This document shows, piece by piece, positions 45,720 through 62,383 of a stretch of DNA of 64,000 nt. Source of the stretch: Bacteroidota bacterium (GTDB taxonomy: Bacteria > Bacteroidota > Bacteroidia > J057 > JAJTIE01); contig JAJTIE010000005.1 of the NCBI GenBank assembly GCA_021300195.1, positions 1-64,000 of the forward strand, read 5' to 3'. Below the pieces are notes generated by a model. That model saw only the letters and a list, made by a program, of their open reading frames with translations. It had not been told where the DNA came from and searched no databases. A program made the position numbers and the translations under genes. Position 1 is the stretch's first letter, and each line of letters opens with the position of its first letter.

Positions 45720-47285
45720 CTAGTCTACGTTGTCGAAGAGGAAGCTGTTGTTATCGCGCAGGCGGTAGCGTTCTTCTCCCTCGTCGCTCACCGTCAGGCG
45801 ACTGATCTTTCGGTTTTGCTGCACAGTTTCTTCCGGCTCTATGTCCACCTGCCTGCGCAGATAGCTGGGTACGCGCTCCAGTTCCTCCACGTCCTTGGGG
45901 TTGGTGGGGTCCAGGCGCTGGGGCCGGGATGGCTGGGGGCTATGGGGCCGAGGCGTGGGGCTGGGATCGGGCTTCGGCTGGTGATAAAAGTTGGTAGCGG
46001 GGCGCGTGCGGCCCCCTGTGTCCATGGCATCAAACAGGCTTGGTGTGTGTCGCTCAGGCTGCGGGGGCTGGGGGGCCGGTCGCCTGCGCTTAAACTTATC
46101 TACCGGTGGCTCTTCTGCTTCGGGCTGTGGCTGGTGCGCGGGGGGCAGGTCTACGCCTTCGTCCTCGTCCTCTATTTCCAGTATAAAGGGTTTTTTCTCC
46201 TTTTCCGCTGGCACCCTGGCCGGGGGGGGCGAAGCTATGGGGCCAGCCTGTATCTCCAGCTCGGGCATCGGGCGGCTTACGGGTGCTTGGTGCGGTTGGT
46301 CAAAGCCGGTGGCGATGACAGTTACGGTCAGGTCATCTCCGGCCTCATCCGTCAGCACCTGGCCCAGGATGATGCGGGCATTATCGCCCACGGCTTTGTG
46401 GATGTATTCACCTATTACCTCCACTTCGTCCATGGTAAGGGTGTCTTCACTGGCGGTAATGTTTACCAGCACGCCGGTGGCCCCGCTAATGTCTACATTA
46501 TCCAGCAGCGGGCTACTCAGGGCATCTTCCACGGCGTTGATGGCCCGGTTGTCTCCGTGGTGGGTGGCCATACCCATCAGGGCACTGCCGCTGCCTTTCA
46601 TCACCGTTTGTACATCGGCAAAGTCTACGTTCATATAGCCCTCTATGGTAATGATCTCGGCTATGCCCTTGGCGGCATCGCACAGCACCTTATCGGCCAT
46701 CTTGTAGGCATCGCGGGCCTTGATATTTCGGGGGCAGATCTCCATCAGGTTGGCGTTGTTTATCACCAGCAGGGTGTCTACCACGCGCTGTAGCTCGGCC
46801 ACGCCCGACTTGGCTATTCGGTTTCGCCAGTCGCCCTCAAACTTGAAGGGGGTGGTAACGATGCCCACCGTGAGGATGCCCATCTCTCGGGCTATTTCGG
46901 CTATAACAGGTGCAGCCCCGGTACCGGTGCCCCCGCCCATGCCGGCGGTGATAAACACCATGCGGGTATTGCCCTGCAGAATGTGGCGTACATCCTCACG
47001 GCTCTCCAGCGCGGCCTCGCGGCCTACCTCCGGCTTGGCTCCGCAGCCCAGGCCATTGGTAAGCTCCATGCCCAGCTGGAGTTTATTGGGGATGGGGCTA
47101 CCCTTTAGCACCTGCAGGTCGGTATTACAGATGTAAAAGTCTACGCCCTCGATGCCTTTTTCGTACATGGTACGCACGGCATTTCCGCCGCCACCGCCCA
47201 CGCCGATTACCTTAATGAGGTTTTCGGTGTCGAAATGTGAAGTGGCAGGATCGGAGATCGGAAAGTCAAAGTCTATGCCAGCCAT
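45720..47285 (-). CDS. ftsZ: Cell division protein FtsZ
   Basis: A 521-residue tubulin-like GTPase that forms the division ring. VIGVGGGGGNAV (26-37), GMGGGTGTGAAP (about 114-125) and the T7-loop form NVDFADVQ are all present. After the core (about residue 325) comes a long Pro/Gln-rich linker. VPSYLRRQ (about 469-476), the conserved C-terminal peptide that binds FtsA, follows. A further 40-residue tail ends NSFLFDNVD; such a tail after the FtsA-binding peptide is usual in this phylum, to my knowledge. Last gene of the ftsW-murGC-ftsQAZ run, five bases after ftsA. Confidence 0.97.
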   Translation of the reverse strand: MAGIDFDFPISDPATSHFDTENLIKVIGVGGGGGNAVRTMYEKGIEGVDFYICNTDLQVLKGSPIPNKLQLGMELTNGLGCGAKPEVGREAALESREDVRHILQGNTRMVFITAGMGGGTGTGAAPVIAEIAREMGILTVGIVTTPFKFEGDWRNRIAKSGVAELQRVVDTLLVINNANLMEICPRNIKARDAYKMADKVLCDAAKGIAEIITIEGYMNVDFADVQTVMKGSGSALMGMATHHGDNRAINAVEDALSSPLLDNVDISGATGVLVNITASEDTLTMDEVEVIGEYIHKAVGDNARIILGQVLTDEAGDDLTVTVIATGFDQPHQAPVSRPMPELEIQAGPIASPPPARVPAEKEKKPFILEIEDEDEGVDLPPAHQPQPEAEEPPVDKFKRRRPAPQPPQPERHTPSLFDAMDTGGRTRPATNFYHQPKPDPSPTPRPHSPQPSRPQRLDPTNPKDVEELERVPSYLRRQVDIEPEETVQQNRKISRLTVSDEGEERYRLRDNNSFLFDNVD

Positions 47286-47290
47286 AAGTG

Positions 47291-48628
47291 TTATTCTATA
47301 GTGGTAGTATTGCTGCCGGTTACGTTGGATTCGAACCAGTTTTTGATGCGCGATACAAGCTTTCCGCTACCCGGGTCTGCCTCGGGCAGCTGGGTGCGAT
47401 AGCCGCCTCCGGCCTGCTGTATTTTTCGCCTGGCGGGGCGGGTTTCAGCCTCGGGGCTGGCAGGGGGAGTGGCTTCTTTTTGCAGGCCATACACCACCAG
47501 GCCGGTGGCGGTGCTGTACTGTGGGTAGCGGGTTTCGGCCACCATCCCCTTGGCAAACTGGCTGCTGGGGCTACCCACGCGGCAGTCTATGCCCGTTACA
47601 TACTCTACCAGCTGGCTAATGTGGTGCAGCTGGCTGGTGCCACCGGTCAGCACGATGCCGCCCACCAGTTTGCTTCGGTACCCACTCTTGTTTATTTCCT
47701 GCTCCACAAACTCCATTAGCTCCTCTACCCGCGCCTGTATAATGTGGGCCAGGGTCAGGTTGCGGATCTCTTTGGGCGGGCGGTTGCTCAGGCCCGTGAT
47801 GGTGATAATCTCCTCCTGGTCGGCCAGGGCATCGGCTTTGGCGCTGCCATAGCGGGTTTTCAGCAGTTCGGCCTGGCGCACCATCACATTGCAGCCGTGC
47901 TTTATGTCTTCGGTAACCACCTGGCCGCCAAAGGGGATGACTGCTGTGTGGCGGATGATGCCGTCTTCGAAAATGGCGAGGTCTGTGGTGCCGCCGCCCA
48001 TATCCACCAGGCATACGCCGGCTTCCTTTTCCTCCTCGCTCAGCACCGAGTAGCTGCTGGCAATGGGCGCATACACCAGCTCCACAATCTCCAGGCCGGC
48101 GCGGCGGATGCAGCGTGCCAGGTTCCGCACGCTATTGCTGTGGGCCATTACGATGAGGTAGTTGCCCTCCAGGCGTACACCGCTCATGCCTACGGGGTCT
48201 TTTATCCCGGCCTGGGCATCTACGGTATACTCCTGGGGTAGCACATGCAGGATCTCCATGCCCAAGGGGATGGGCACGCGGTGCATGTCTGCCGCCAGGC
48301 GGTTCAGGTCTTCCTGGCAGATCTCCATATCGGGGTCGGGCAGGGTGATAATGCCCTTCTGCTGCTGGCTACGGATGTGCTCGCCGCTGATGGCCACATG
48401 TACGGCATTGATCTCCACATTGGCGTGCTTCTCCGCCTCCTCTACGGCGTAGCGGATGGCGGCCACCGTTTTGTCGATGTTGTTGATCTCACCCCGCTTC
48501 ACGCCGTCGCTATCGGCCTGCCCTTTGCCCAGGATGTCGATGTTTCCGTACTCATTGTACTTGCCCACCACCGCCACCACCTTGGTGGTGCCAATGTCCA
48601 GTCCTACTATAATGCGCTCCGTATTCAT
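47291..48628 (-). CDS. ftsA: Cell division protein FtsA
   Basis: A 445-residue actin-like ATPase that anchors FtsZ to the membrane. VGLDIGTTKVVAVVG (8-22) is the phosphate-1 motif. The SHS2/1C domain follows, with VHVAISGEHIRSQ, then CLVDMGGGTTDLAIFEDG, the phosphate-2 motif, and GGIVLTGGTSQLHHI near 325-339. The C-terminal amphipathic membrane anchor is probably RIKNWFES. It lies between ftsQ (7 bp) and ftsZ (5 bp). Confidence 0.97.
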   Translation of the reverse strand: MNTERIIVGLDIGTTKVVAVVGKYNEYGNIDILGKGQADSDGVKRGEINNIDKTVAAIRYAVEEAEKHANVEINAVHVAISGEHIRSQQQKGIITLPDPDMEICQEDLNRLAADMHRVPIPLGMEILHVLPQEYTVDAQAGIKDPVGMSGVRLEGNYLIVMAHSNSVRNLARCIRRAGLEIVELVYAPIASSYSVLSEEEKEAGVCLVDMGGGTTDLAIFEDGIIRHTAVIPFGGQVVTEDIKHGCNVMVRQAELLKTRYGSAKADALADQEEIITITGLSNRPPKEIRNLTLAHIIQARVEELMEFVEQEINKSGYRSKLVGGIVLTGGTSQLHHISQLVEYVTGIDCRVGSPSSQFAKGMVAETRYPQYSTATGLVVYGLQKEATPPASPEAETRPARRKIQQAGGGYRTQLPEADPGSGKLVSRIKNWFESNVTGSNTTTIE

Positions 48629-48635
48629 ATTCTGT

Positions 48636-49391
48636 TCACGATCTTTTGGTGGCCACTATCTGCCCGTCATACTTCAGTGCTATGGACTTGTAGTAGCGCC
48701 ATCCGCGTACCGATAGTACTTCCTGGTAGAAATGCAGCAAATGCTTTAGCTTTTTCTGGTAGTCATAGGGCGCACCGAATAGGATGCGCAGCTCGCCCAG
48801 GGTGGGATACAGCACCAGGTCTCCGGCCCTGTCTCGGTACAGCTCGCTGATGTGGGCCCGCCAAAACTCATCTTCGGCTATGTGGTGCAGCATGGGCACC
48901 AGGGTCATCAGGGTGCTATCGGCCTCAGGCTGGTGGGCCAGGTCGGGCACGTTGCCTGTCAGCAGGGGTACGCGGGCGGTGTAGGCGGTACTCAGGGGGA
49001 TGATGTGGCCCTCAGCGTCCAGGTAATAGCCGGCCATGCCATTGGGCAGCACCCGGGCCACGGGCTTGCGCAGCTGCACCTGTAGCATCAGCTGCCCATC
49101 GGTGCCGAAGTAGGCTATGGCCGAATCTACATACTGGGTAGCCAGCAGCTCCTGCTCCAGCGCCTGTAGGTCTACGGCCTGCACGGGCTGCTGTAGCACG
49201 CGGGTTTCCAGGCTCAGCAGTTCATTGATGTCGGCCACAGAGAGGAAGCATTGGTCGGGCTCTGCCTCTATCTTCACCTGGATGCGCAGCACCCGCTTCT
49301 GCTCATGGTAGAAGGTACTGGCCACAAACAGCAGGAGCGTAAGCACCGGTATGCCGATCAGCAGGGCGATATTTCGGGTTTTGCGGTTCAA
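48636..49391 (-). CDS. ftsQ: Cell division protein FtsQ/DivIB
   Basis: A 251-residue single-pass membrane protein. A short cytoplasmic N-terminus, one helix (about residues 8-26, IALLIGIPVLTLLLFVAST), a POTRA-like segment and a beta domain (VQLRKPVARVLPNGMAGYYLDAEGHIIPLS) are seen. FtsQ-type proteins have low sequence conservation; the call depends on the PVARV..G..YYLD.EG motif and location. Its ATG overlaps the stop of the murG-murC gene by four bases (ATGA). Confidence 0.92.
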   Translation of the reverse strand: MNRKTRNIALLIGIPVLTLLLFVASTFYHEQKRVLRIQVKIEAEPDQCFLSVADINELLSLETRVLQQPVQAVDLQALEQELLATQYVDSAIAYFGTDGQLMLQVQLRKPVARVLPNGMAGYYLDAEGHIIPLSTAYTARVPLLTGNVPDLAHQPEADSTLMTLVPMLHHIAEDEFWRAHISELYRDRAGDLVLYPTLGELRILFGAPYDYQKKLKHLLHFYQEVLSVRGWRYYKSIALKYDGQIVATKRS

Positions 49392-51871
49392 GCCTTGGGG
49401 AGCAGGGTTAAGAGCTTTTGTCGGATGGCGGGCACCTGGGTGTCTATGTCTCCTGCACCCATGCTCACCACTACTGTGGGGCGAGAAAGAGCGGGGAGGA
49501 TAGCATCGGCAGCTTCCTGTAAATTTATGATCTGACGATGCTCATGCGTGATTTGTTGATAAATCAGATCGACCGTAACGTTGGGTATGGATAACTCTCG
49601 GGCGGGGTAGATGTGCATAAGATACACCCAATCCGCCTGGCTCAGGCTGCGGCCAAACTCCTGGTAAAAATCGCGGGTACGGCTAAACAAATGGGGCTGA
49701 AAAAGGGCCACAATCTGGTGCTTCGGCCAGGCGGCTTTTACCGCGTTCAGGCAGGCATCTATCTCGGCCGGGTGGTGGGCATAGTCGTCTACATACACCA
49801 GATCAGCGGTATCAATCTGTAGTTCAAAGCGTCGTTTTACGCCACGAAAGTCTGGCAGCAGTTGGCGTATTTGCTCGGGTGCTACGCCTGCCTCCAGGGC
49901 CAGGCATATGGCGGCCAGGGCATTCAGCAGGTTGTAGGCTCCGGGGCGGTTCAGCACCAGGCCGGGGATGCGCAGCCCCGCTTGCACGTAGGTGAAGTGG
50001 GTGCGCACGCCTGCATAGTGCACGTCTTCGGCGCGAACATTTCCGCTATCAATGCCGTAGAATAGCAGCCGCTGCTGCGGGTGGCTGTGGATAAATGGCC
50101 GGGTGGATTCGTGCGCCACGATGGTACCCCCGGGGGCCACCTGGGCCAGCAGCTGGTTGTAGCTCTGGTGCAGGGCCTGCACCTGGCCATAGATGTCCAG
50201 GTGGTCGGGGTCCAGGCTGGTAAGGATAAGGTGGCGGGGGTATAGCTGCAGGAAGCTACGGTCGTACTCATCGGCCTCGGCCACCAGCCAGGGGCTGCCG
50301 CCAGCCCGGAAGTTGGTGTCGTAGTTGGCCATGATTCCGCCCACAAAGCAGGTGGGGTCTAGCCCAGCCTCCGTAAGCAGGTAGCCCAGCAGGCTGCTGG
50401 TGGAGGTCTTGCCATGGGTGCCTGCCACGGCCAGCGTGCTGTGGCTGCGGGCTATGCGGCCCAGCACCTGGGCGCGCTTCCACACAGGCAGGCCCTGGGC
50501 ACGCGCGGCCAGCAGGTCGGGCTGCGCTTCGCCCACGGCAGGGGTGTATATCACGCTGTCTATACCCTGCAGGTTCTGCACAGGGTTTGGCTCGTACACC
50601 AGCTGCATACCCTCGGCAGCCAGGCGTCGGGTCAGGGGGGTCTCGCTGCGGTCGTAGCCGCGCAGGCTACAGCCCTGGGCCTGCAGCTGGCGGGCCAGCG
50701 CACTCATGCCAATGCCCCCTATGCCGATACAGTACACCGCCTTGCCCGGCCCAAAGGGGTCATCCGCCTGTAGCTGCCACTGCCGTTGTATGGCCTGCAC
50801 CATGGCGGTGGCAGCAGGGGTGGCCGGCACCGCCATGGCCTGGCCCAGGCGGGCCAGCTGCTCGGGGTCCTTTGCCAGCTGGATGAGCTGCGGCACCAGC
50901 TGAGTGGGTGCCTGGGCATCGGGCAGCAGCCGGGCACCCCCCAGCTGCACCAGGCTCTGGGCATTCCGGGTCTGGTGGTCATCGGCCACATTGGGGCTGG
51001 GCACCAGGATGGCGGGCTTGCGGAGGGCCTGTAGCTCGGCCAGGGTGAGTGCACCCGCACGGCACACCACCAGGTCGGCCACGGCATAGGCAGCCCCCAT
51101 ATCTGCCACAAAGGGCAGCACCCGGATGGTTTCGCTCGCGTAGGCCTTGTACTGCTCGTAGTACCCGGTTCCGCATTGCCACAGTAGCTGTATCCCCGCC
51201 TGGGCAAGTGCCTCTGCGCCGGCGGCCAGGGCTTCATTCAGGCTACGCGCGCCCAGGCTGCCACCGGTAACAAAAACCGTAGGGCGGCCAGCCTGTAGCC
51301 CAAAGGCGGCCGCATTGGGCTGTGCGGATAGCACCGCGCTGCGCACCGGGTTTCCTGTTACCACCGCCCGCCCATGCGGAAAGTAGGGCAGGGCATCGGC
51401 ATAGCCCAGCAGGATGAGGTGGGCCCGGCGGCCATGGGTGCGGTTGGTAAGGCCGGGATAGGCATTCTGCTCGTGTATAACGCGCAGAATACCACGCATC
51501 CGGCTGGCTACACCCAGGGTGGTATAGCTGGCATAGCCCCCTACGCCGATCACCACATCGGGCCGAAAGCGCCGCAGGATCCGATAGCTCTGTAGGTGGG
51601 CCACCACCAGCTTGAGCGGCAGCAGGGCATTGCGCAGCAGGTTTCTCAGGCTCTTCTGCCGGTAGTAGCCGCTTATCCATACACCCTGGATGGGGTAGCC
51701 TGCCTGGGCCACCCAGTGCATTTCGCGCCCCCCTTTGGCACCTACAAATTGTATCTGCACCTGGGGGTCATGGGCCCGCAGGGCATCGGCCAGGGCCAGG
51801 GCAGGAAACACGTGGCCGCCTGTGCCGCCACCAGCTATCAGTACCCGCTGTATGGATCGGGGCTTGCTCAT
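49388..51871 (-). CDS. Fused MurG-MurC: lipid II-forming glycosyltransferase plus UDP-MurNAc:L-alanine ligase
   Basis: A single 827-residue reading frame. Residues 1-366 are a full MurG: GGGTGGHVFPALALADAL (14-31), GVGGYASYTTLG, HEQNAYPGLTNR (133-144) and VCRAGALTLAEL (269-280). This part attaches GlcNAc to lipid I. After a linker at about 367-376 (near 50760), residues 377-827 are a full MurC: VYCIGIGGIGMSALA (379-393), ATP loop VAGTHGKTST (482-491), EADEYDRSFL (532-541) and DDYAHHPAEI (695-704). This part adds L-Ala to UDP-MurNAc. The two are normally separate neighbouring genes. The upstream ftsW stop overlaps its ATG by four bases, as does its own stop with ftsQ. Confidence 0.93.
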   Translation of the reverse strand: MSKPRSIQRVLIAGGGTGGHVFPALALADALRAHDPQVQIQFVGAKGGREMHWVAQAGYPIQGVWISGYYRQKSLRNLLRNALLPLKLVVAHLQSYRILRRFRPDVVIGVGGYASYTTLGVASRMRGILRVIHEQNAYPGLTNRTHGRRAHLILLGYADALPYFPHGRAVVTGNPVRSAVLSAQPNAAAFGLQAGRPTVFVTGGSLGARSLNEALAAGAEALAQAGIQLLWQCGTGYYEQYKAYASETIRVLPFVADMGAAYAVADLVVCRAGALTLAELQALRKPAILVPSPNVADDHQTRNAQSLVQLGGARLLPDAQAPTQLVPQLIQLAKDPEQLARLGQAMAVPATPAATAMVQAIQRQWQLQADDPFGPGKAVYCIGIGGIGMSALARQLQAQGCSLRGYDRSETPLTRRLAAEGMQLVYEPNPVQNLQGIDSVIYTPAVGEAQPDLLAARAQGLPVWKRAQVLGRIARSHSTLAVAGTHGKTSTSSLLGYLLTEAGLDPTCFVGGIMANYDTNFRAGGSPWLVAEADEYDRSFLQLYPRHLILTSLDPDHLDIYGQVQALHQSYNQLLAQVAPGGTIVAHESTRPFIHSHPQQRLLFYGIDSGNVRAEDVHYAGVRTHFTYVQAGLRIPGLVLNRPGAYNLLNALAAICLALEAGVAPEQIRQLLPDFRGVKRRFELQIDTADLVYVDDYAHHPAEIDACLNAVKAAWPKHQIVALFQPHLFSRTRDFYQEFGRSLSQADWVYLMHIYPARELSIPNVTVDLIYQQITHEHRQIINLQEAADAILPALSRPTVVVSMGAGDIDTQVPAIRQKLLTLLPKA

Positions 51872-52989
51872 GCGGCTTCGGCTATGCTGGTTCTGCTCAC
51901 ACTCAGGATAACCCCGAAGGACATGGCCGTGAAGAGTAGTGAGGTGCCCCCCATGCTGATGAGGGGCAGGGACAAGCCCGTAACCGGTAGCAGCCCCACG
52001 GTAACCCCCATATTGATGAGGGCCTGTATAACAATAAGGAAGCTAAGCCCGGCGGCCAGCAGTGCCCCGAAGGTCTTGCTGATGGTAACGATCCCCACGG
52101 CGCGGATCATCAGCAGGATGTAGAGGGCCAGCACCACCACACCGCCCAGCAGGCCGTACTCCTCGATGATGATGGCGTACACAAAGTCGCTATACGCCTG
52201 GGGCAGGTAGTGCCGCTGCACGCTCTTGCCCGCGCCCTTGCCCAGGAAGCCACTGGTGGCAATGGCCATATTGGCCTGCTCGCGCTGAAACTGCTCGTCA
52301 TTATTGGGCTGGCCAGCCCACCAGTTTTCTATCCGATGCTGCCAGGTGGCAGAGCGCTTGAAGATATTGCCATAGATGGCTACCGTGGCTAGCAGCAGGC
52401 CACTGAGCATAAGGCCCAGCATGTGGCGGCTATTAATGCCGGCAATGAACATCAGGATAAAGCTGGTGAACATGAGCACCATGGCCGTGCTCAGGTTGTG
52501 GGGCGCGATAAGGCCGCAGATAACGAACACAGGCAGGATGGTGGGCACAAAGCTGCGGCGAAAGTCCTTGATCAGATTCTGCCGCTGGGTGAGCACCTTG
52601 GCCAGGTAGATCATGAGGCTGAACTTGGCCAGGTCGGATGGCTGAAAGCTGAGGCCGAACACACGAATCCAGCGGCGTGCCTCGTTCACCTCTGCGGCCT
52701 GGCCCTGAAAAAGGGTGTAGAACAGCAGCAGCGCACTGATAGCCAAGAGCAGGTTGGCAAAACGGGCAAAGGCTCGATAATCTATGCGATGTACCAGAAA
52801 CATCATGAGCAGGCCCAGGGCCATCAGGGCCACGTGCTTCAGCAGGTAGTACTCCGTGCTTCCCTCGCGCTGCTGAAAGGCCAGGCCACTGGTACTGGTG
52901 TACACCGCCAGCACGCTAATGAGCGTGAGGAGGGCAATGATGAGCCAGATGCCGCGGTCTCCTTTCAGGTGATAGGTAAAGACTTGCAT
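51868..52989 (-). CDS. ftsW: Cell division peptidoglycan glycosyltransferase FtsW (SEDS family)
   Basis: A 373-residue protein with about ten membrane helices. SEDS motifs include WIRVFGLSFQPSDLAKFSLMIYLAKVL (near 106-132), ATSGFLGKGAGKSVQRHYLPQAYSDFVYAIIIEEYGLLGG (near 240-280) and ALINMGVTVGLLPVTGLSLPLISMGGTS near the C-terminus. FtsW polymerises lipid II at the septum with a class B penicillin-binding protein. It is first in the operon here; the MurE/MurF/MraY/MurD genes that would normally precede it are missing from this side. RodA is a formal alternative, but cluster context favours FtsW. Confidence 0.93.
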   Translation of the reverse strand: MQVFTYHLKGDRGIWLIIALLTLISVLAVYTSTSGLAFQQREGSTEYYLLKHVALMALGLLMMFLVHRIDYRAFARFANLLLAISALLLFYTLFQGQAAEVNEARRWIRVFGLSFQPSDLAKFSLMIYLAKVLTQRQNLIKDFRRSFVPTILPVFVICGLIAPHNLSTAMVLMFTSFILMFIAGINSRHMLGLMLSGLLLATVAIYGNIFKRSATWQHRIENWWAGQPNNDEQFQREQANMAIATSGFLGKGAGKSVQRHYLPQAYSDFVYAIIIEEYGLLGGVVVLALYILLMIRAVGIVTISKTFGALLAAGLSFLIVIQALINMGVTVGLLPVTGLSLPLISMGGTSLLFTAMSFGVILSVSRTSIAEAA

Positions 52990-53238: not shown

Positions 53239-54312
53239 CTATACAAAGCGCTGTGCCAGGCGCCCAGCCAGCTCTTCCAGCACCACACTATGGGACTGCG
53301 CCAGTCCTCGCCCGTGGTCCACTAGCCGCTTCAGGTTATGGGGATGTGCGTTATCCATCCGAGCCATTTTTCGGTCTGTCAGCACATGGTTAATGCGCAC
53401 ATAGGTGTCGCAAATACCCTGCTTCCAGGCCTGGGGGGTAGGGGTAGGGATGGGCGTACCCTCCGATGTAGAGCCCTCAAAAAGTGTTTCCAGCTGGTGC
53501 TGGGTTACCTCCCGCGCTCCGTCAAACATTAGGCTAATAATGGTCATATCCGGCACAATCCAGCGGATATCTCCCCAGCGTGCTACCTGGGGCCTGAAGC
53601 GTAAGGCAGAGGTGCCTGTACCCAGAGAAACCAGCAGAATGGGCCGATCTGGCGTGCCGGCCGCGGTAAGCAGCTTCTGTGCTTCTGTAAAAGCGCAGAG
53701 GGCCGGATCATTGGCGCATACCCCCCCATCTATAAAGCGGTGATGCGTGCCATCCGGTGCCTGCACCGCGTAGGGGGCGAAGTAGGTAGGTGCGGCCGAG
53801 GTAGCGGCTGCTATCTCTCTGAGCCGAAAATCGGGCCGGTCGGCCCGCGCACGGTGCCGCTTGAAAAAATAGGCTTGGGCGTTATTCAGGTCATAGCTGG
53901 TAATCAGCAGTTCATTCAGCGCCTCGCTCAGGCACTGCTCACCCAGGTACTGGCGCAGCACGCGGTCCAGCCCCCTACGGCTGTAGCTGGGGCCATAAAA
54001 CCAGCTAACCACATCCTTGCGCAGGCTCCAGCCAGGCGCAAAGATCTCGGCACCTCGGTCTTGGAAGAGCGATACCAGATCAGCAGCGCGGTAGCTCCTG
54101 CTTCCATCCGGCTGGCCGTGCGCCAGTCCGCAGGCCAGGATGGCCCCCGTAGAGGTGCCTGCCAGCAGATCAAAGGCATCAGCCAAGGCAACTGTGCGCC
54201 CCAGCTGATTGATCAGCTTCTGCTCCAGTGCCTCCAGCACCAGGGCGGGAATTATGCCGCGTATGCCGCCGCCGTCTATGGAAAGGATGGTGTAGGGAAC
54301 TGTGTACTCCAT
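53239..54312 (-). CDS. Patatin-like phospholipase
   Basis: A 357-residue patatin-family acyl hydrolase. DGGGIRG (13-19) forms the oxyanion hole; GTSTG (52-56) holds nucleophile Ser54; FIDGGVCANDP supplies the catalytic Asp of the dyad. SAAPTYFAPY and a region like those in plant patatins are visible. There is no signal peptide, so it may act in the cytoplasm on membrane lipid. No nucleotidyl cyclase or other CBASS/defence partner is adjacent, so a plain lipase is more likely than a defence effector. Divergent from the methyltransferase gene. Confidence 0.9.
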   Translation of the reverse strand: MEYTVPYTILSIDGGGIRGIIPALVLEALEQKLINQLGRTVALADAFDLLAGTSTGAILACGLAHGQPDGSRSYRAADLVSLFQDRGAEIFAPGWSLRKDVVSWFYGPSYSRRGLDRVLRQYLGEQCLSEALNELLITSYDLNNAQAYFFKRHRARADRPDFRLREIAAATSAAPTYFAPYAVQAPDGTHHRFIDGGVCANDPALCAFTEAQKLLTAAGTPDRPILLVSLGTGTSALRFRPQVARWGDIRWIVPDMTIISLMFDGAREVTQHQLETLFEGSTSEGTPIPTPTPQAWKQGICDTYVRINHVLTDRKMARMDNAHPHNLKRLVDHGRGLAQSHSVVLEELAGRLAQRFV

Positions 54313-54408
54313 GTCGCCAAGCTAGCAAAATGTATGACTTGCTGTGCCAGCTGGCCGGCATCGGAAGCCGTGAGAAAGCTGTATATTGGGCAGCCCTTTT
54401 CACTCTGT

Positions 54409-55197
54409 ATGGCCTTTGCCCACCACTTGGATATCTCGCATCAGTTTGAGCAGCAGCAGGCTGTTACACAGGCGTATATCATCCCCTTTCTGGCTCCACA
54501 CTTTCGGCCAGGGCCGGGCATGCAGGTGCTGGATGTGGGCTGTGGGGTGGGCGGGGTACTGGCCCCCTTTGTAGCAGCAGGCTGCACCTGCACCGGGGTG
54601 GATGTGGACACGGCAAGCATAGAGGTGGGGAAGCAGCTGCACGCCGACCTGATAGCTGCTGGCAGCCTAGCCCTGTATCGCCAGGATATCTACGACTGGG
54701 ATACCGAACAACGCTTTGACCTGATCCTGCTGAAAGACAGCATAGAGCACATAGCGGACCAGGCACGCATCATTGGCCACCTGAAGACCTTTCTGAAACC
54801 GGGTGGTTTTATCTTCTTTGGCTTTCCGCCCTGGGTTATGCCCTTTGGGGGGCATCAGCAGGTTATCCGGCGTAGTGCCCTGCTCAGCAAGCTGCCGTGG
54901 TACCACCTGCTGCCCATGCCGCTATACCGGGCCGTGCTGCGTGCGGGCGGCGTGGAACCGGGCAACCAGGACTTTCTGATAGAAACCAAGGAACGGGGCA
55001 TCAGCAGCTGGCGCTTCCAGCGGATATTGAAACGCACCGGCTACCGGATTGTAAAACGCACTTTCTGGCTTTTCAACCCCATCTATCAGTACAAGTTTGG
55101 CCTAAAAGGACGCAAGCAGTTTGGGCCTATCGCCCATCTGCCCGGCCTGCGCGACCTCATCAGCACCGCCGTATACTACCTGGTACAGCCCCGATAG
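54409..55197 (+). CDS. SAM-dependent class I methyltransferase
   Basis: A 262-residue protein. VLDVGCGVGG (motif I) binds SAM, followed by TGVDVDTASIEVGKQL and a DLILLKDSIEHI stretch (motif IV-like). FLKPGGFIFFGFPPW matches methyltransferase post-motifs seen in Coq3/UbiG-like and sugar methyltransferases. The C-terminal part has long basic/aromatic stretches. I start at ATG 54409; the frame stays open far upstream across the patatin gene on the other strand, but that upstream part has no recognisable domain. Substrate unknown. Confidence 0.85.
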   Translation: MAFAHHLDISHQFEQQQAVTQAYIIPFLAPHFRPGPGMQVLDVGCGVGGVLAPFVAAGCTCTGVDVDTASIEVGKQLHADLIAAGSLALYRQDIYDWDTEQRFDLILLKDSIEHIADQARIIGHLKTFLKPGGFIFFGFPPWVMPFGGHQQVIRRSALLSKLPWYHLLPMPLYRAVLRAGGVEPGNQDFLIETKERGISSWRFQRILKRTGYRIVKRTFWLFNPIYQYKFGLKGRKQFGPIAHLPGLRDLISTAVYYLVQPR

Positions 55198-55305
55198 AAA
55201 TGCACGGCCGGATTTGAGGCCAGGCTGTGTAATAAAATCCGTATTTGTACAGCTAATCTTTTCCTGTCGTTTTCTAGCAGTAACTCGGCTTCCGCATCAG
55301 CTGGT

Positions 55306-56322
55306 TTAGCCCAGTTGTTCGGGTAACCCCGGCAGGGTAGCCAGTGCCTGCTGGGCGCTGATGCCATAGCCGCAGGCAAAGTGTCCCAGCGGGCAGGCCC
55401 GCCTGCCATGCAGGCCGCAGGGGCGGCAGACCAGGGGCTCGGGCGTTTCCAGCACCACCTGGTCGTCGGCCAGTGGGCCGAAGCCAAACTGAGGGATGGT
55501 GCTACAGAAGAAGGTCGTCGTGGGGGCATTCACGCTGCTGGCCAGGTGCAGGGGGGCGCTGTCGTTGGCAAACACGCGCATGGCCTGCTGCATCAGGGCG
55601 GTGGTCTGCATCAGGCTTAGCTGGCCGGCCAGCACCTGTGCGTGGGGCAGGCCATGGGCCAGGCGGCTGCACAGGGGCTCGTCGCTAGGTGCGCCCACCA
55701 GGTAGGCCGTCAGGGTGGGGGGTAGCAGCTCCAGCAGCTGCCGCCAGCGGGCTTCGGGCCACTGCTTGGTAGCCCACACACTGGCCGGGGCCAGCACCAC
55801 ATAGGGCTGCTGCTGGTAGGGGGCTACGGCGGCCTGGTCTTCCGGGCTGGGGTGCAGGCTGGGGCGTGCGGGCTGCTCGTCGGTCCAGGGGGCTATCAGC
55901 ACCTGGTTGCGCGCGGTTTCGTGCAGCCAGTGTGCGTCTTGCTGCTGGCCTATGGGGTGCTCGGCCGCCCAGGTGTAGGCAAAGGAGAAGGGGTTTTTCC
56001 GGTAGCCCACCTTGTAGCGGGCGTGCTGCAGCCAGGTGAGCAGCCCACTGGTGCCAAAGCGGTGCAGGTTCACCACCAGGTCCCACTGGTGCTGCCGTAG
56101 CCGCAGGGTTAGCCGCAGCAGGTTGCGCAGTTTATGCTTTCTTTTCACCCATACCCATACCTGGTCTATACCTGGGTGGTGTGCCAGCAGGCCCTCATTG
56201 CCCTGGCGCACCAGGTAGTGCACCTGGGCCTTGGGGTAGTGCTGCTTCAGCTTATTGGCTACAGCCGTAGCCAGGATGGCATCGCCTATGAAAGCGGTTT
56301 GTATAACCAGGATCTTCTGCAT
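55306..56322 (-). CDS. Glycosyltransferase family 9 (heptosyltransferase-like)
   Basis: A 338-residue GT-B glycosyltransferase. KILVIQTAFIGDAILATAVA (3-22) and VHYLVRQGNEGLL fit the N-terminal domain of the ADP-heptose:LPS heptosyltransferase family. VNLHRFGTSGLLTWL, VVLAPASVWATKQWP and VFANDSAPLHLASSVNAPTTTFF follow; the last is the sugar-nucleotide site. Near the C-terminus, CRPCGLHGRRACPLGHFACG has four cysteines in a tight cluster. Likely adds a core sugar to lipopolysaccharide. Transcribed after the OmpA-sized protein at 56345. Confidence 0.88.
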   Translation of the reverse strand: MQKILVIQTAFIGDAILATAVANKLKQHYPKAQVHYLVRQGNEGLLAHHPGIDQVWVWVKRKHKLRNLLRLTLRLRQHQWDLVVNLHRFGTSGLLTWLQHARYKVGYRKNPFSFAYTWAAEHPIGQQQDAHWLHETARNQVLIAPWTDEQPARPSLHPSPEDQAAVAPYQQQPYVVLAPASVWATKQWPEARWRQLLELLPPTLTAYLVGAPSDEPLCSRLAHGLPHAQVLAGQLSLMQTTALMQQAMRVFANDSAPLHLASSVNAPTTTFFCSTIPQFGFGPLADDQVVLETPEPLVCRPCGLHGRRACPLGHFACGYGISAQQALATLPGLPEQLG

Positions 56323-56344
56323 GCCTGGGGCTAGCTAGGCCCTA

Positions 56345-56986
56345 TTAGGGGAAGTAGTAGTTGATGGAAACGGCAAAGTTGGTCAGGTCCAGGTCGGTAC
56401 GCCCGCCTATATTGGGGGTGCCAGCGCCCGAGTCGTTTGCATCCACCTCGGTTCGTACGGTGGTCAGGTTGGTCTGAAACCGGATGCCGATCGGATTATT
56501 CAGGTTCAGCACCAGTTCGCCCATCACGGCCGGAGACAGAAAGCTGGCTTGCACAGCCCCGGTCCGGTTGGTCGTTTGGTTTACGAACGGCACCCGCACG
56601 TAGGTAAAGTTTCCGCCTATCCCCAGTGCAAAGCCCACCTTGCCCTCCGAAAACTTCGTGGCACCGGCCCCTATTTTGGCGGTGATGAATACGGGGGTCT
56701 GCACCAGCAGGCCAATGGGATCGGTAAACCGTACGCCAAAGTTCAGGTTGGGCTCTATGCCCACACTCAGGAAGTCGTCGCTGTGCGCGTACACATAGTT
56801 TACCCCGCCTGATATGGCAGCAAAGTAGGCCCCGGGCGAGTCGGAGAAATAATTGCTGCCATCCGGCAGCTTCATGCCAATGTAGTCTACAAACACCAAG
56901 CCCAGGTGTGGCTGAATCTTGTCTAGCAGCTCCTGGCTGCGCCCCAGCGATACCAAGCTAATGAGTAGAAGCAGAAGGATTTTCAT
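56345..56986 (-). CDS. Exported beta-barrel-like protein of unknown function
   Basis: A 213-residue protein. Signal peptide KILLLLLISLVSLGRSQ precedes alternating beta strands ending in LTNFAVSINYYFP, with terminal aromatic residue as in outer-membrane barrels. Gly-rich turns (GVNYVY, GIGGNFTYV) fit an eight- to ten-stranded barrel. It lies 22 bp upstream of the family 9 glycosyltransferase in the same direction and 24 bp after the radical SAM gene, so the three are probably co-transcribed. No named family recognised. Confidence 0.65.
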   Translation of the reverse strand: MKILLLLLISLVSLGRSQELLDKIQPHLGLVFVDYIGMKLPDGSNYFSDSPGAYFAAISGGVNYVYAHSDDFLSVGIEPNLNFGVRFTDPIGLLVQTPVFITAKIGAGATKFSEGKVGFALGIGGNFTYVRVPFVNQTTNRTGAVQASFLSPAVMGELVLNLNNPIGIRFQTNLTTVRTEVDANDSGAGTPNIGGRTDLDLTNFAVSINYYFP

Positions 56987-57010
56987 GGTTTTTAGGTTTT
57001 GGGTACCCGG

Positions 57011-58057
57011 TCAGGCGCGGGTGCCCCACACGCGGGTACCTTCGGTGCAGTTTTTGCAAATATCTATGTTTTTTCGGTTGTGCAGCAGCTGCCGGCGGAA
57101 GCTTTTGTAGGCCGGACTGTGGTGCCACACCTGGGCAAAGCTTTGCTCGGGCACCCGGCCCATTTCATAGCGCCCATCCTTGTCGAAGCAGCAGGGCAGC
57201 ACCCGGCCGTCCCAGGTTAGCTCGGCTCCCTGCCACAGTTTCCAGCAGTGGTTTAGCAGCCTGTTTTTGATGCGGTACTGTCCGTTCACGCGCTCGTAGC
57301 GGCTGTGGCTGCCCGCCTCGGGTATCAGCGCAGGTGCCTGCTCAAAGTCGTAGATCTGGGCCGTTTTGATACGCACCCGGTCTGCGCCCAGCTGCCGCCC
57401 CAGCAGCCGGGCCTCGTGTACCTCGTGCTGGTTGTGGCTGAAGACGATGAACTGCAGGTCGATAAAGGGCGTGGCCGAGCCCAGCTGCCGCTTCCAGTGT
57501 ACCAGGCGGCGGGTGCCGTCTAGCACAGCCTGAAAGCTGCCGCCCACGCGGTACTGCTCATAGCTGGCCTGGTTGGTGCCATCTAGGCTGATAACCAGCC
57601 TGCCCAGGCCGCTCTCTACGGTGGCCCGGGCCCGGGCATCGTCCAGGAAGTGCGCATTGGTGCTGGTCATCGTGAAGATCCCCCGGTCTGTCGCATAGCG
57701 CACCAGCTCTAGGAAGCGGGGGTGGATGTAGGGCTCGCCCTGGAAGTACAGCATCAGGTAGGCCAGGTAGGGGTGCAGTTCGTCTATCACCCGGGTGTAC
57801 CGCTCCACGTCCAGGTTGCCCATGGGGCGGCTGAAGCTGCGCAGGCCACTGGGGCACTGCGGGCAGCGCAGGTTGCAGGCGGTGGTGGGCTCTATGCCCA
57901 GGGCAATGGGGTAGCCCCAGTGGATGGGCCTGCGTACTGCCCTGCTTGCCAGATAGCTCAGGTATACCTGCAGGGCATTCCACAGCTTCAGGGGGGTAAG
58001 GGTACGGGCTATCAGCCTGCCCTCGCGTACGCGGCTACCTGGGGGGCGCATGTCCAA
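57011..58057 (-). CDS. Radical SAM/SPASM domain protein
   Basis: A 348-residue enzyme. CNLRCPQC near residues 59-66 is the CxxxCxxC site for the catalytic 4Fe-4S cluster. GEPYIHPRF, LVISLDGTNQASYEQYR and a C-terminal cysteine set (HCWKLW, VLPCCFD, ICKNC) match an SPASM auxiliary-cluster domain. Such proteins can modify peptides, enzymes or polysaccharides. No small precursor peptide is visible next to it, and its neighbours are envelope genes. The start could be 58057 or 58051. It is 9 bp downstream of rsmD. Confidence 0.88.
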   Translation of the reverse strand: MDMRPPGSRVREGRLIARTLTPLKLWNALQVYLSYLASRAVRRPIHWGYPIALGIEPTTACNLRCPQCPSGLRSFSRPMGNLDVERYTRVIDELHPYLAYLMLYFQGEPYIHPRFLELVRYATDRGIFTMTSTNAHFLDDARARATVESGLGRLVISLDGTNQASYEQYRVGGSFQAVLDGTRRLVHWKRQLGSATPFIDLQFIVFSHNQHEVHEARLLGRQLGADRVRIKTAQIYDFEQAPALIPEAGSHSRYERVNGQYRIKNRLLNHCWKLWQGAELTWDGRVLPCCFDKDGRYEMGRVPEQSFAQVWHHSPAYKSFRRQLLHNRKNIDICKNCTEGTRVWGTRA

Positions 58058-58066
58058 AGATAGGCT

Positions 58067-58642
58067 TTATTCCGGCTTATTCCCTTCGGGCAAGGCGGGG
58101 GCATCTGCCGGATCGGGCCGGAAGTGCGAGAAGGCACTCTGGCCATATATCCGTTTTTCTACAAAGCACTTCATCCCCTCGTACACCTCGGCACTCGGGT
58201 GCTCCAGGATGCACAGCCCGTCGGGTTCCAGCAGCCCGAGCGACTGCCGTACCAGCCGGGCCTTGTCTGCCAGTGCGTAGGGCGGATCCAGAAACACCAG
58301 GTCGAAGACTGGGCGGGGTGGCTGCGCCAGGTAGGCCTCCACACGCTGTTGTACAATTTGCCAGCCTTCTATTTGCCACGCCTGGCGTATGCGCTGCATG
58401 TGCTGCACAGCCTTGCGCTGCTGCTCCACGGTGGTTACCTGTTGTGCACCCCGGCTTAGGAATTCCAGCGAGATGGCACCCGACCCGCCGAAGAGGTCCA
58501 GCACCCGCAGCCCGCTCAGGGCTACCTGATGCTGCAGCCGGTTGAACAGGGCCTCGCGTGCCAGGTCCGTGGTGGGGCGTATGCCCAGGCTGGTGGGGGG
58601 CTGCAGGTGCCGGCCCCGATATTGGCCACTAATGATGCGCAT
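58067..58642 (-). CDS. rsmD: 16S rRNA (guanine(966)-N(2))-methyltransferase
   Basis: A 191-residue methyltransferase. MRIISGQYRGRHLQPP, IRPTTDLAREALFN (21-34), VLDLFGGSGAISLE (47-60) and the DPPY motif (119-122) are the RsmD signatures. It modifies one guanosine in 16S rRNA. Flanked by DUF3822 upstream (17 bp), a pairing typical of Bacteroidota. Confidence 0.95.
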   Translation of the reverse strand: MRIISGQYRGRHLQPPTSLGIRPTTDLAREALFNRLQHQVALSGLRVLDLFGGSGAISLEFLSRGAQQVTTVEQQRKAVQHMQRIRQAWQIEGWQIVQQRVEAYLAQPPRPVFDLVFLDPPYALADKARLVRQSLGLLEPDGLCILEHPSAEVYEGMKCFVEKRIYGQSAFSHFRPDPADAPALPEGNKPE

Positions 58643-58659
58643 GCTGCGCGTGTTAAAGG

Positions 58660-59514
58660 CTATTTAATCAGCAGATAAGAGAATTCATCCAGATAGAAGC
58701 CTGCCTCATTCAGGTGCGTACTGGCTGGGAATAGCCTGCGCCCTGCCACATAGTGCTTAAACTGCTGTGCCAGCAGGCCCTCTACTTCGGCCCGCATGGG
58801 TGCCGAGCCCGTGGCATACGTTATTACCTGCTGTGGGTGTATGCCCAAGGTCTCGTTTACTTTCATCAGGAAGTACAGCACATCGGCTGCACCTGTTACC
58901 TTATATCTGTTTACAAAGCGCAGCTTGCCCCCCTGGTACAGGGTGTAGATCATGTAGTCGGAGAATAACTCCACATTGGCAGCAGGCTTACCCTTTAGCG
59001 GGCCTATGTGCAGCTTGTGTGCAATCTGCATCACCGGGCTTACGATGTGGGTAAAATTCATGCGTCGCCGCTCGGGCCACGCTTCTTTTACCACGGTCTG
59101 CACCTCTTGTGGCACACAGAATAGCACACTCAGGTCTAGCGTCCGCACTTCATCCCGAAACACCTCGTCTTTCATCGTGTTGGTGTCAAACAGGGTTTCC
59201 ATATACAGGCCCTCTTTGCCCCGGGTAATGAAGCTGTTGGGCACGGCCAGCCAGGGGTCTGAGCTGAGCAGGATCTCCAGCTTGTCATACTTGTGCTGCA
59301 GAATAGGCTCAGATTCGGCGAGGGATTTCAGTGCCTTCGACGCCGTGAGTCCCTCGCTGTTTGGCACATAGCGTAGGTACATGGGGGCGCTGATCTGGTT
59401 TACCACCGCAAAGTGGATGCCATGGGCAGCCAGGCTGATTATCAGCTTGTAGTTCCCTACGAAGCTGTCATCCCAGCTGCTGCTCTTGAATTCTTGAACT
59501 GCGGTCTCTGCCAT
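58660..59514 (-). CDS. DUF3822 family protein
   Basis: A 284-residue protein. SSWDDSFVGNYKLIISL at the N-terminus, a central YMETLFDTNTMKDEVF and a C-terminal HLNEAGFYLDEFSYLL are typical of DUF3822. This family is nearly always beside rsmD in Bacteroidota; I recall an actin-like ATPase fold being proposed but cannot confirm it here. Start 59514 is an ATG preceded three bases upstream by TACTTTTG (59518-59525), an exact -7 element. TTG 59520 would overlap that promoter. Confidence 0.85.
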   Translation of the reverse strand: MAETAVQEFKSSSWDDSFVGNYKLIISLAAHGIHFAVVNQISAPMYLRYVPNSEGLTASKALKSLAESEPILQHKYDKLEILLSSDPWLAVPNSFITRGKEGLYMETLFDTNTMKDEVFRDEVRTLDLSVLFCVPQEVQTVVKEAWPERRRMNFTHIVSPVMQIAHKLHIGPLKGKPAANVELFSDYMIYTLYQGGKLRFVNRYKVTGAADVLYFLMKVNETLGIHPQQVITYATGSAPMRAEVEGLLAQQFKHYVAGRRLFPASTHLNEAGFYLDEFSYLLIK

Positions 59515-59517
59515 GCT

Positions 59518-59525
59518 CAAAAGTA
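59518..59525 (-). promoter_or_regulatory. -7 element immediately before the DUF3822 gene
   Basis: On the minus strand TACTTTTG is followed by AGC and the ATG at 59514. This predicts a transcript with no leader. Confidence 0.5.
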
Positions 59526-59633
59526 CAGAACATCTGCCAAATCAGCGAGGGCCTGTTGTACACACCCGGGCCGTGGCCTGGGTTTTGTAGCCCAGCGGCA
59601 CCGGGGCGATGAGGGGGGTATGGGCTGCGGTGC

Positions 59634-59641
59634 TATCTTTG
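59634..59641 (+). promoter_or_regulatory. -7 element immediately before the LolC/E-like permease gene
   Basis: TATCTTTG is an exact TAnnTTTG and is followed by CGC and the ATG at 59645. It sits back to back with the DUF3822 promoter. No TTG at 18 bp. Confidence 0.5.
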
Positions 59642-59644
59642 CGC

Positions 59645-60871
59645 ATGATCTTCAGTGCATGGGTGGCGCGGCGCATAGCCCTGGGTGGCAGGCGCAGCCT
59701 GAGCCGCCTTACCGTGTGGATGGCGGTGGGCAGCATGGCTATCGGCATCCTGGTTATGGAGGTCAGCCTGAGTGTGACGCGGGGCTTTCAGCAGCAGCTG
59801 GCCCAGCAGCTGGTGGGCTTTACCGGCCATGTGCAGATACAATACTACCTGGCCCAGCAGGATGATAGCCTGCGCACCCTACCCCTGCACGACCCCACGG
59901 TGGCAGGCCTGCCCGCGCAGTTTCCGGCCATACGTCACATTACCCCCTACATCCAGCAGGATGCCATGCTGAAGAGCACTACGGGCATAGAGGGCATACG
60001 CACCCTGGGCCTAAACCACCGCTGGGATACGGTTTTTTTCGCTTCGTCCCTGGTGGCGGGCCGGCTGCCCCGCTTCCCGCAGGGCGATACCCTAGGCTAT
60101 GAAGTGCTGCTGGGCCGGCGCCTGGCACGGCAGCTACAGGTGCAGGTGGGCCAGCCGGTCAAGCTCTATTTTCAGACCCAGGGCCGCATCCGCAGCCGCA
60201 CCCTCAGGGTGGTGGGCCTGTACGAAACCGGCTTTGCTGAGTTTGACCAGAGCGTTATCCTATGCCACCTGGGCCTGCTACAGCGGCTGCTGGGCCTGGC
60301 GCCCGACCGGGTGCAGGGCTTTGCCCTGCGCCTGGATCCCGATGCCGTCCCCGATGCCCTTACAGCAGCCATCCACCCCCGCCTGGCACCCGACCAGCAG
60401 GCCATGGGCCTGCGCCAGCGCCATGCCGACCTCTTCCAGTGGCTGGACATGATAGACCAGACCCTGCTGATTATTATGGGGCTGATGCTGTTTGTGGCGG
60501 TGCTGAATATGGCTGCAGCCCTGATGATGCTGATTACCGAACGGACTACCCTGATTGGCATCCTGAAGGCCCTGGGTGCCAGCGGCAGGCAGGTGCAGCG
60601 GATTTTCCTGTGGAATGCGGCGCTGCTGCTGCTGCGCGGGCTACTGCTGGGCAATGCCCTGGCCCTGCTGCTGCTGCTGCTGCAAGACCAAACCGGCCTA
60701 GTGCAGCTAGATGCCGATAGCTACTACCTGAATGAGGTGGCAGTGGCCTGGCCCTGGTGGGACTTTCTGTGGCTAAATATCTTCACGCTGGCTTTCTGCC
60801 TGCTGTGTATGTACCTGCCCGCACGCGTGGCACAGCGCCTGCCCATCACCCGCGCACTGCGCTTCCGCTAG
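59645..60871 (+). CDS. ABC transporter permease, LolC/LolE type
   Basis: A 408-residue protein. An N-terminal helix (about 24-46) is followed by a large periplasmic MacB-like domain (about 50-255) and an FtsX-type core of three helices near the C-terminus. ITERTTLIGILKALGASGRQVQRIFLWNAALLL and MYLPARVAQRLPITRALRFR are typical. The family moves lipoproteins from the inner to the outer membrane with LolD. The only LolD-like ATPase in the window is at 36649, so the pair is split. I start at 59645 as the -7 element is three bases upstream; a GTG/ATG at 59609 would place the element inside the gene. Confidence 0.88.
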   Translation: MIFSAWVARRIALGGRRSLSRLTVWMAVGSMAIGILVMEVSLSVTRGFQQQLAQQLVGFTGHVQIQYYLAQQDDSLRTLPLHDPTVAGLPAQFPAIRHITPYIQQDAMLKSTTGIEGIRTLGLNHRWDTVFFASSLVAGRLPRFPQGDTLGYEVLLGRRLARQLQVQVGQPVKLYFQTQGRIRSRTLRVVGLYETGFAEFDQSVILCHLGLLQRLLGLAPDRVQGFALRLDPDAVPDALTAAIHPRLAPDQQAMGLRQRHADLFQWLDMIDQTLLIIMGLMLFVAVLNMAAALMMLITERTTLIGILKALGASGRQVQRIFLWNAALLLLRGLLLGNALALLLLLLQDQTGLVQLDADSYYLNEVAVAWPWWDFLWLNIFTLAFCLLCMYLPARVAQRLPITRALRFR

Positions 60872-61096
60872 GGGGCACCGGTGGGATGGGGAAACAAACG
60901 GCTGTCTGATCATAATTTAAAAGCATTCTAAATAACTGCGCTTTTCAAGGCCCGCCATGCCCCTGCGTACGGAAAACCCCCTCTTGTCTTCATAAAAACT
61001 TCATTTTTTGGCACGAAAGCGTGTGCGGCTTTCTGCCAATGTCAGTACTTTTGACCCACAACAGCCGCGTAAGATTTTGTGGTGCCCCGGCCAGCC

Positions 61097-61126
61097 TTTG
61101 TTTTATCCGGAAAGCCCTTAATTTTG
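61097..61126 (+). promoter_or_regulatory. Promoter of the actA-actB operon
   Basis: TTTG (61097-61100), 18 bp, TAATTTTG (61119-61126), an exact -7 element. Its spacing equals that of both tRNA promoters. The ATG is 23 bp downstream. A second TACTTTTG at 61046-61053 has no partner at 18 bp. Confidence 0.7.
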
Positions 61127-61149
61127 CCGACATCGTAATCGTTCGATCT

Positions 61150-62364
61150 ATGTTCAAACGTATTTTTACGCTTCTACTACTCGGCCTACTGGCGGTAGCC
61201 CAGGCACAGGATGGAGCGGCCCTACTAAAGAAGTATGGCTGTACCAGCTGCCACAAGATGGACCAGAAGATGACCGGTCCCGCCCTGCAAGGTGCCGTAG
61301 AGCGCTGGCAAGGGGATAAGGCTGAAATGAAGAAAATGATTCAGCTTGGCGCTGCCGAGTACGCCAAGACTGGCGCAAAGGGTGCCTACGTGCAGGGGCT
61401 GATAGACGAGCTGAAGCAGGTGATGGCGCCACACGCCTTTGTGCCCGAGGCTGATATTGACAATATCCTGACCTACATAGAGACCTATACCCCACCGGTG
61501 GCCAGTGCCGAGCCTGCCCCAGGTGCCGGTGCTGCCCCAGCCGGACAAGCCGCAGTAGAGCCCGGCGATACCATACTGTATGGCCTGGTGGTGCTGGTGG
61601 GCCTGCTGGTACTCATCACCCTGGTGCTGGTGGTGGTTATAGCAGCCGTACTCAGCGCCATCCGTGCACGCGAGCGCGGAGAGAAATTTACCTATGGTAC
61701 GCTGAAAGACAGTGCCACCGGGCTTATAAAGAACAAGTTTGTGCTCACCCTCATCGGCCTAATCATTGTGGGTGGGGTGCTGGATAAGGGCTACAACTTT
61801 GTAGCGCACATCGGCTTCCACGACGGCTATCAGCCCGTGCAGCCCATCCCCTTCAGCCATGCCCTGCACGCCGGCCAGTACCAGATCAACTGCCTGTACT
61901 GCCACACCGGTGCAGATAAGAGCAAGAGTGCAACCATCCCCTCTACCAACATCTGTATGAACTGCCACGCGGACGGCGCCATTGCACAAGGCCCCAGTGG
62001 TAATAGCCAGATACTGGATAAGGTACGCGCTGCGCACAACGAGGGCCGCGCCATAGAGTGGGTACGCATACACAACCTGCCCGACCTGGTGTACTTCAAC
62101 CACAGCCAGCACGTAAAAGTGGGTGGCCTGGAGTGCCAAACCTGCCACGGCCCCGTGCAGGAGATGGAGGAGGTATATCAGTTTAGCCGCCTTACCATGG
62201 CCTGGTGCGTAAGCTGCCACCGTGAGAAGGCTGTCAAGTTTAACGACAACGCCTACTACCAGCACGTGTACCACAATGTACGCAACGACCTGCAAGAGGG
62301 CCGTATCGACTCGGTAACCGTAGCGCGACTAGGCGGACTGGAATGCCAACGTTGTCACTATTAA
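61150..62364 (+). CDS. actA: Alternative complex III multihaem cytochrome c subunit ActA, with extra N-terminal cytochrome domain
   Basis: A 404-residue protein. After a signal peptide (FKRIFTLLLLGLLAVAQAQ), residues 21-112 form a monohaem cytochrome domain with CTSCH (31-35). An Ala/Pro linker and one membrane helix (about 142-170) precede a pentahaem domain with CLYCH (248), CMNCH (269), CQTCH (329), CVSCH (353) and CQRCH (399). Six haem sites in all. ActA carries electrons within alternative complex III, which oxidises quinol. Start 61150 fits the signal peptide. actB follows 19 bp downstream. Confidence 0.93.
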   Translation: MFKRIFTLLLLGLLAVAQAQDGAALLKKYGCTSCHKMDQKMTGPALQGAVERWQGDKAEMKKMIQLGAAEYAKTGAKGAYVQGLIDELKQVMAPHAFVPEADIDNILTYIETYTPPVASAEPAPGAGAAPAGQAAVEPGDTILYGLVVLVGLLVLITLVLVVVIAAVLSAIRARERGEKFTYGTLKDSATGLIKNKFVLTLIGLIIVGGVLDKGYNFVAHIGFHDGYQPVQPIPFSHALHAGQYQINCLYCHTGADKSKSATIPSTNICMNCHADGAIAQGPSGNSQILDKVRAAHNEGRAIEWVRIHNLPDLVYFNHSQHVKVGGLECQTCHGPVQEMEEVYQFSRLTMAWCVSCHREKAVKFNDNAYYQHVYHNVRNDLQEGRIDSVTVARLGGLECQRCHY

Positions 62365-62383
62365 TCTTCGAATCTCTCCTGCC

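Follow-up and report, generated by a model that had tools for sequence, protein, structure and literature searches.

A single-frame MurG-MurC fusion in Bacteroidota: rare, patchy and of repeated origin

Introduction

Can a single gene encode both MurG and MurC, two cell-wall enzymes whose steps are not consecutive, and if so, is such a gene an oddity of one assembly or a recurrent arrangement? The question is raised by a long open reading frame in a Bacteroidota genome, lying within the 64,000-nucleotide stretch of DNA analysed here (the window), which an earlier inspection without database searches (the sequence-only reading) had interpreted as a fusion of two complete enzymes. MurG is a peripheral membrane enzyme. 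MurC catalyses the first ligase step; since MurA and MurB act earlier, it does not stand at the beginning of the pathway, where that reading had placed it. Fusions of murG and murC have been identified before, with the one of Cellulomonas gilvus drawn (Laddomada et al. 2016, PMC4929429), and MurG/MurC is cited among the known Mur fusions (Laddomada et al. 2019, PMC6420597); both papers present these fusions, without characterisation, as support for a Mur complex.

Results

One frame encodes complete MurG and MurC families

The 827-codon frame was present at 49388-51871 as claimed, on the minus strand, which had not been specified; it starts with ATG at 51871 and ends with a stop codon at 49388-49390, and a plus-strand reading of the same interval contains many stops. 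It is embedded in an operon of the order ftsW-murGC-ftsQ-ftsA-ftsZ, all on the minus strand. Upstream, ftsW (51868-52989; PF01098) overlaps the fusion gene by 4 nt, and downstream an ftsQ-like gene (48636-49391; PF03799, weak but above the cut-off) overlaps it by a further 4 nt, followed by ftsA (47291-48628; PF14450, PF02491) and ftsZ (45720-47285; PF00091, PF12327).

Both halves of the protein were assigned to their families by NCBIfam models above the curated cut-offs. Residues 7-358 matched TIGR01133 (MurG) with 282 bits (cut-off 250), covering model positions 5-349 of 353, and residues 379-812 matched TIGR01082 (MurC) with 390 bits (cut-off 335), covering model positions 2-444 of 449; these scores exclude a chance match. 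The Pfam domains were, in order, the two GT28 domains of MurG (PF03033, PF04101) and then the three Mur-ligase domains (PF01225, PF08245, PF02875), and solved homologues aligned along both halves. A complete MurG (about residues 7-361) thus precedes a complete MurC (about 378-812) in one unbroken frame. The protein does not belong to the MurC-Ddl family, since it scored 218 bits with NF011171 (cut-off 1015) and contains no Ddl part.

The three motifs named in the sequence-only reading were all found: the glycine-rich loop GGGTGGH of MurG (residues 14-20; 51812-51832, minus strand), its HEQN motif (residues 133-136; 51464-51475, minus strand) and the ATP-binding loop GTHGKTST of MurC (residues 484-491; 50399-50422, minus strand). 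Conservation was assessed in an alignment of 53 sequences, comprising 13 fused proteins and 40 split same-frame relatives, the latter read through their stop codon solely as an alignment aid. In this set, residues 15-20 of the MurG loop were 100% conserved and G14 91%, and position 133 was Q in most relatives. Invariant residues of the MurG half were H20, E134, N136, R177, E279, Q300 and N303, including residues of the donor and acceptor sites; those of the MurC half, which belong to the ATP loop and to ligase motifs in its middle and C-terminal domains, were G484, H486, K488, T489, E532, E535, H557, N650, R681, D696, H699 and R731.

The dcw cluster of this genome is divided between two places, with ftsW-murGC-ftsQ-ftsA-ftsZ in the window (45720-52989) and the remainder on contig C32 of the same genome (G000; about 54700-62500, L186), where murE, mraY and murD accompany a gene for an FtsI-like penicillin-binding protein. 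The mraY gene there (L186:7516-8898) is long, encoding 460 aa, and matched TIGR00445 in two stretches, which suggests that it carries an internal insertion absent from the model. Elsewhere in the window, a plus-strand open frame of 485 aa (53740-55197) has its N-terminal part opposite a patatin-like gene, and its portion downstream of about 54300 looks methyltransferase-like by eye; its true start is probably internal.

The predicted structure joins two folded enzymes by a short loop

An AlphaFold2 model of the fusion protein had a mean pLDDT of 93.1, with both halves confident and no disordered segment. The last MurG helix spans residues 353-369 and the first MurC strand (378-382) begins at residue 378, which divides the gene into a MurG part (residues 1-369; 50765-51871), a linker in coil conformation (residues 370-377; 50741-50764) and a MurC part (residues 378-827; 49391-50740), all on the minus strand. 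The linker had been put at about ten residues; it is indeed short, although slightly shorter in the model, at about eight. Foldseek gave separate matches for the two halves: the MurG half matched 1f0k (TM-score normalised by target, 0.81) and 3s2u (0.85), the MurG proteins of E. coli and P. aeruginosa, and the MurC half matched E. coli MurC, 2f00 (0.86). The pTM of 0.68 and the domain-wise matches mean that the relative orientation of the halves is not fixed by the model, which defines no specific interface. The protein is accordingly predicted to consist of two well-folded enzymes connected by about eight loop residues.

The fusion is rare and patchy in Bacteroidota

The sequence-only reading had proposed a count of fused against split cases. 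Among 22 genomes of the window's order, the genes were fused only in the two genomes of the window's own family; the other readable genomes had separate murG and murC, several with a 4-nt ATGA overlap. The second family member (G001), which belongs to another genus, carries an unbroken fused orthologue of 62% identity, in a locus where ftsW, murGC, a gene in the ftsQ position, ftsA and ftsZ follow the same order with 4-nt overlaps from ftsW to ftsA. In a sample of the class, a full-length match without a stop was found in 5 of 395 genomes, which were verified as the window's genome, G001 and three members of one genus (g117) in family f56. This genus was fused in three of the four genomes covered, the fourth having no match to MurG or to an orthologous MurC, and the other genera of f56 were split. 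A phylum sample of 395 genomes, mostly from other classes, yielded no further unbroken full-length match.

Nine more fused loci came from a scan of named genome contigs, which is biased towards high-scoring same-frame loci and gives no rate; they include the cultured Imperialibacter sp. EC-SDR9 (L052), a Tannerellaceae MAG and several Bacteroidales MAGs. The number of fused loci in Bacteroidota verified at the DNA level is 14, in about seven groups. Seven other genomes (G359, G301, G077, G099, G191, G078 and G318) had offered open frames of about 840-900 aa as candidate fusions and were rejected, as their DNA contained separate frames or an in-frame stop between the two genes. The MurG-MurC fusion is rare and patchy in its distribution. 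Many Bacteroidia (L005, L006, L007, L009, L049, L053 and others) have murG and murC in the same frame, separated by one stop and 0-40 nt, so that a single mutation would lead to fusion or readthrough. One further locus, L102, lies on a contig titled Phycisphaerales bacterium (Planctomycetota), yet its MurG and MurC group with Chitinophagaceae; the genome is probably misnamed or mis-binned.

Phylogeny indicates repeated origin, probably from adjacent genes

On a tree of 139 concatenated MurG and MurC sequences, the fused state required eight changes, and well-supported branches forced every one. Another tree, of 51 rows and built under a mixture model with split members of f56 added, again gave eight changes, seven of which were forced. 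The fused groups are the window's family, genus g117 of f56, Imperialibacter, L058, L061 together with L091, a Bacteroidales set (L054, L074, L109 and L103) and L088; the Bacteroidales set involves either a loss or several gains. Since these state changes fall in about seven groups, we conclude that the fusion arose repeatedly in Bacteroidota. A single fusion event behind the cases in the window's family and in f56 had been considered and was dropped once the split f56 members entered the tree. Within the Bacteroidales, the split L062 and L112 nest among the fused L054, L074 and L103 on both trees, and a fused gene may here have been split again.

The linkers of the fused loci, measured across the aligned junction, are about 13 to 63 residues long, vary in composition and are not conserved in sequence, as would be expected from separate events. 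In nearly all relatives, murG and murC are adjacent and either overlap or share a frame that is interrupted by a stop and a few intervening bases, so that a lost stop or a small indel would be enough to join them, and the fusions would have arisen in this way. In the window's family, the source was probably the adjacent murG and murC of an ftsW-murG-murC-ftsQ-ftsA-ftsZ operon. The fusion gene contains the tetranucleotide ATGA at its junction in another frame (50760-50763, minus strand), resembling the overlaps of split relatives (L010, L011 and L012). It is tempting to regard this as a relic of such an overlap, which is speculative, as four bases prove nothing.

This mode of origin bears on why the fusion exists. 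It could be a neutral accident, in which a lost stop codon or a short indel joined neighbouring genes and the product was tolerated with no functional gain; such an accident is compatible with a bifunctional protein. The single stop or ATGA overlap that separates the genes in so many split relatives, the scatter of fused cases on the trees and the unconserved linkers all favour it. Against it, the fusion has persisted through the divergence of two genera in the window's family and is held by most of the sampled genomes of g117. Repeated origin itself fits neutral and beneficial views alike. Because the fusion is rare, patchy and variable in its linker, we regard neutrality and benefit as about evenly balanced on present evidence, and so low a frequency, 5 of the 395 genomes sampled from the class, gives no indication of a strong, general benefit.

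The junction argues against two separate products

The locus might still yield two proteins, through an internal MurC start or a post-translational cut. The earlier statement that the junction lacks start-like spacing was mostly right; one in-frame GTG, at V378, directly precedes the MurC core. This codon lies four codons ahead of the MurC glycine loop, and the split MurC proteins of relatives begin just a few residues further upstream, both of which would suit internal initiation. However, G001 has no start at the corresponding place, its nearest candidates being a TTG at -10 and a GTG at -24, and L074 has no in-frame start between MurG and the MurC loop except an ATG inside GIGGIGM. With no start codon common to both genera, and none in the junction of L074, an internal start is disfavoured. 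Cleavage finds no better footing, as no conserved cleavage motif was apparent in the variable linkers of the aligned fused loci. We therefore consider the production of two proteins unlikely.

The fused gene is the only source of MurG and orthologous MurC

The window's genome (2.67 Mb, 98.6% complete) contains a single MurG, the one in the fusion. The next MurC-like protein (L187:1817-3235, on contig C6 of G000) is 27% identical to the fused MurC and scored below both relevant cut-offs, with 231 bits against 335 for TIGR01082 and 164 bits against 389 for Mpl. Its existence allows the reading that the MurC half is no longer a working enzyme but a structural appendage, the contig C6 protein doing its job. 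This is highly improbable: the fused half retains all catalytic residues and scores far higher with TIGR01082, and weaker MurC-like proteins of the same kind also occur in most of the split relatives with a full MurC, for which reason we take the contig C6 protein to be a paralogue. An Mpl-like function in recycling is one possible role for it.

Least credible is an assembly or sequencing error near 50760 that conceals a stop and a second start, for although the assembly is fragmented (71 contigs), neither half loses alignment around the junction and the independent G001 genome is fused without a stop at 62% identity, which excludes such an error, a false join in both genomes being not credible.

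Discussion

With its single frame, intact families and motifs, two predicted folded domains, conservation in a second genus and recurrence in the phylum, the locus very likely encodes one bifunctional protein of about 90 kDa that would be held at the membrane through its MurG half and would serve as the only MurG and orthologous MurC of the cell. The N-terminal MurG would transfer GlcNAc to lipid I on the cytoplasmic side of the inner membrane, and the C-terminal MurC would carry out the ATP-dependent addition of L-alanine to UDP-MurNAc. Since MurG sits peripherally on the membrane, its fusion partner MurC should be kept there too, always in 1:1 proportion to MurG. Direct substrate channelling between the two is not expected, because their steps are not consecutive; co-localisation and a fixed ratio would be the plausible gains, and any gain in catalysis is an inference. 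These expectations are in keeping with a published model in which MurG acts as a scaffold for the Mur enzymes and MurG/MurC is listed among the fusions joining non-consecutive steps (PMC6420597).

The sequence-only reading knew of no characterised MurG-MurC protein. In the open-licence PMC literature, we likewise found no enzymatic study, though subscription papers may exist, and no reports of the fusion beyond the two Laddomada papers; the fusion type itself had nevertheless already been reported there (PMC4929429, PMC6420597). Compared by description, the Cellulomonas gilvus fusion likewise joins adjacent dcw genes for non-consecutive steps, murG and murC, in one frame. It comes from an actinomycete, whereas the present cases are from Bacteroidota, a phylum that the Laddomada papers do not name for MurG/MurC, and the patchy distribution makes separate origins likely. 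The MurE-MurF protein of Bordetella pertussis also combines two Mur enzymes in one chain and binds MurG, for which a Mur complex has been proposed, but it differs in that its ligases are consecutive and biochemically studied and MurG is a separate protein (PMC6420597). In the MurB-MurC fusion of Verrucomicrobium spinosum, whose function was tested by complementation in E. coli, the partner is MurB and MurC is N-terminal (PMC4803751). Chlamydia MurC-Ddl (NF011171) similarly fuses MurC to an enzyme that is not its pathway neighbour, but here the partner is Ddl, at the C-terminus. This study contributes the Bacteroidota examples, evidence that they arose repeatedly and an estimate of how rare they are, the kind of fusion being already known. 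Annotation pipelines may take this as a warning, as our NCBIfam scan showed models for MurC-Ddl and MurE-MurF and none for MurG-MurC.

Whether the cytoplasmic Mur enzymes form a complex on MurG is a debate of many years, fed by localisation data, binding studies and gene fusions. As one natural chain, MurG-MurC would provide a stable 1:1 pair that is open to expression and assay, and with about seven separate groups in the phylum the fusion can be tested comparatively, as was not possible with the single named actinomycete example. A bolder reading, which we hold only tentatively and think rather doubtful, is that selection has repeatedly favoured the fusion in Bacteroidota as a way of coupling the first of the ligases to the last cytoplasmic enzyme, which is bound to the membrane; precursor synthesis would then proceed in a Mur complex attached there. 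Should the fusion have no effect, gene fusions would become weaker evidence for channelling; if the bolder reading is true, these natural fusions would put the long-debated notion of a Mur complex directly to the test.
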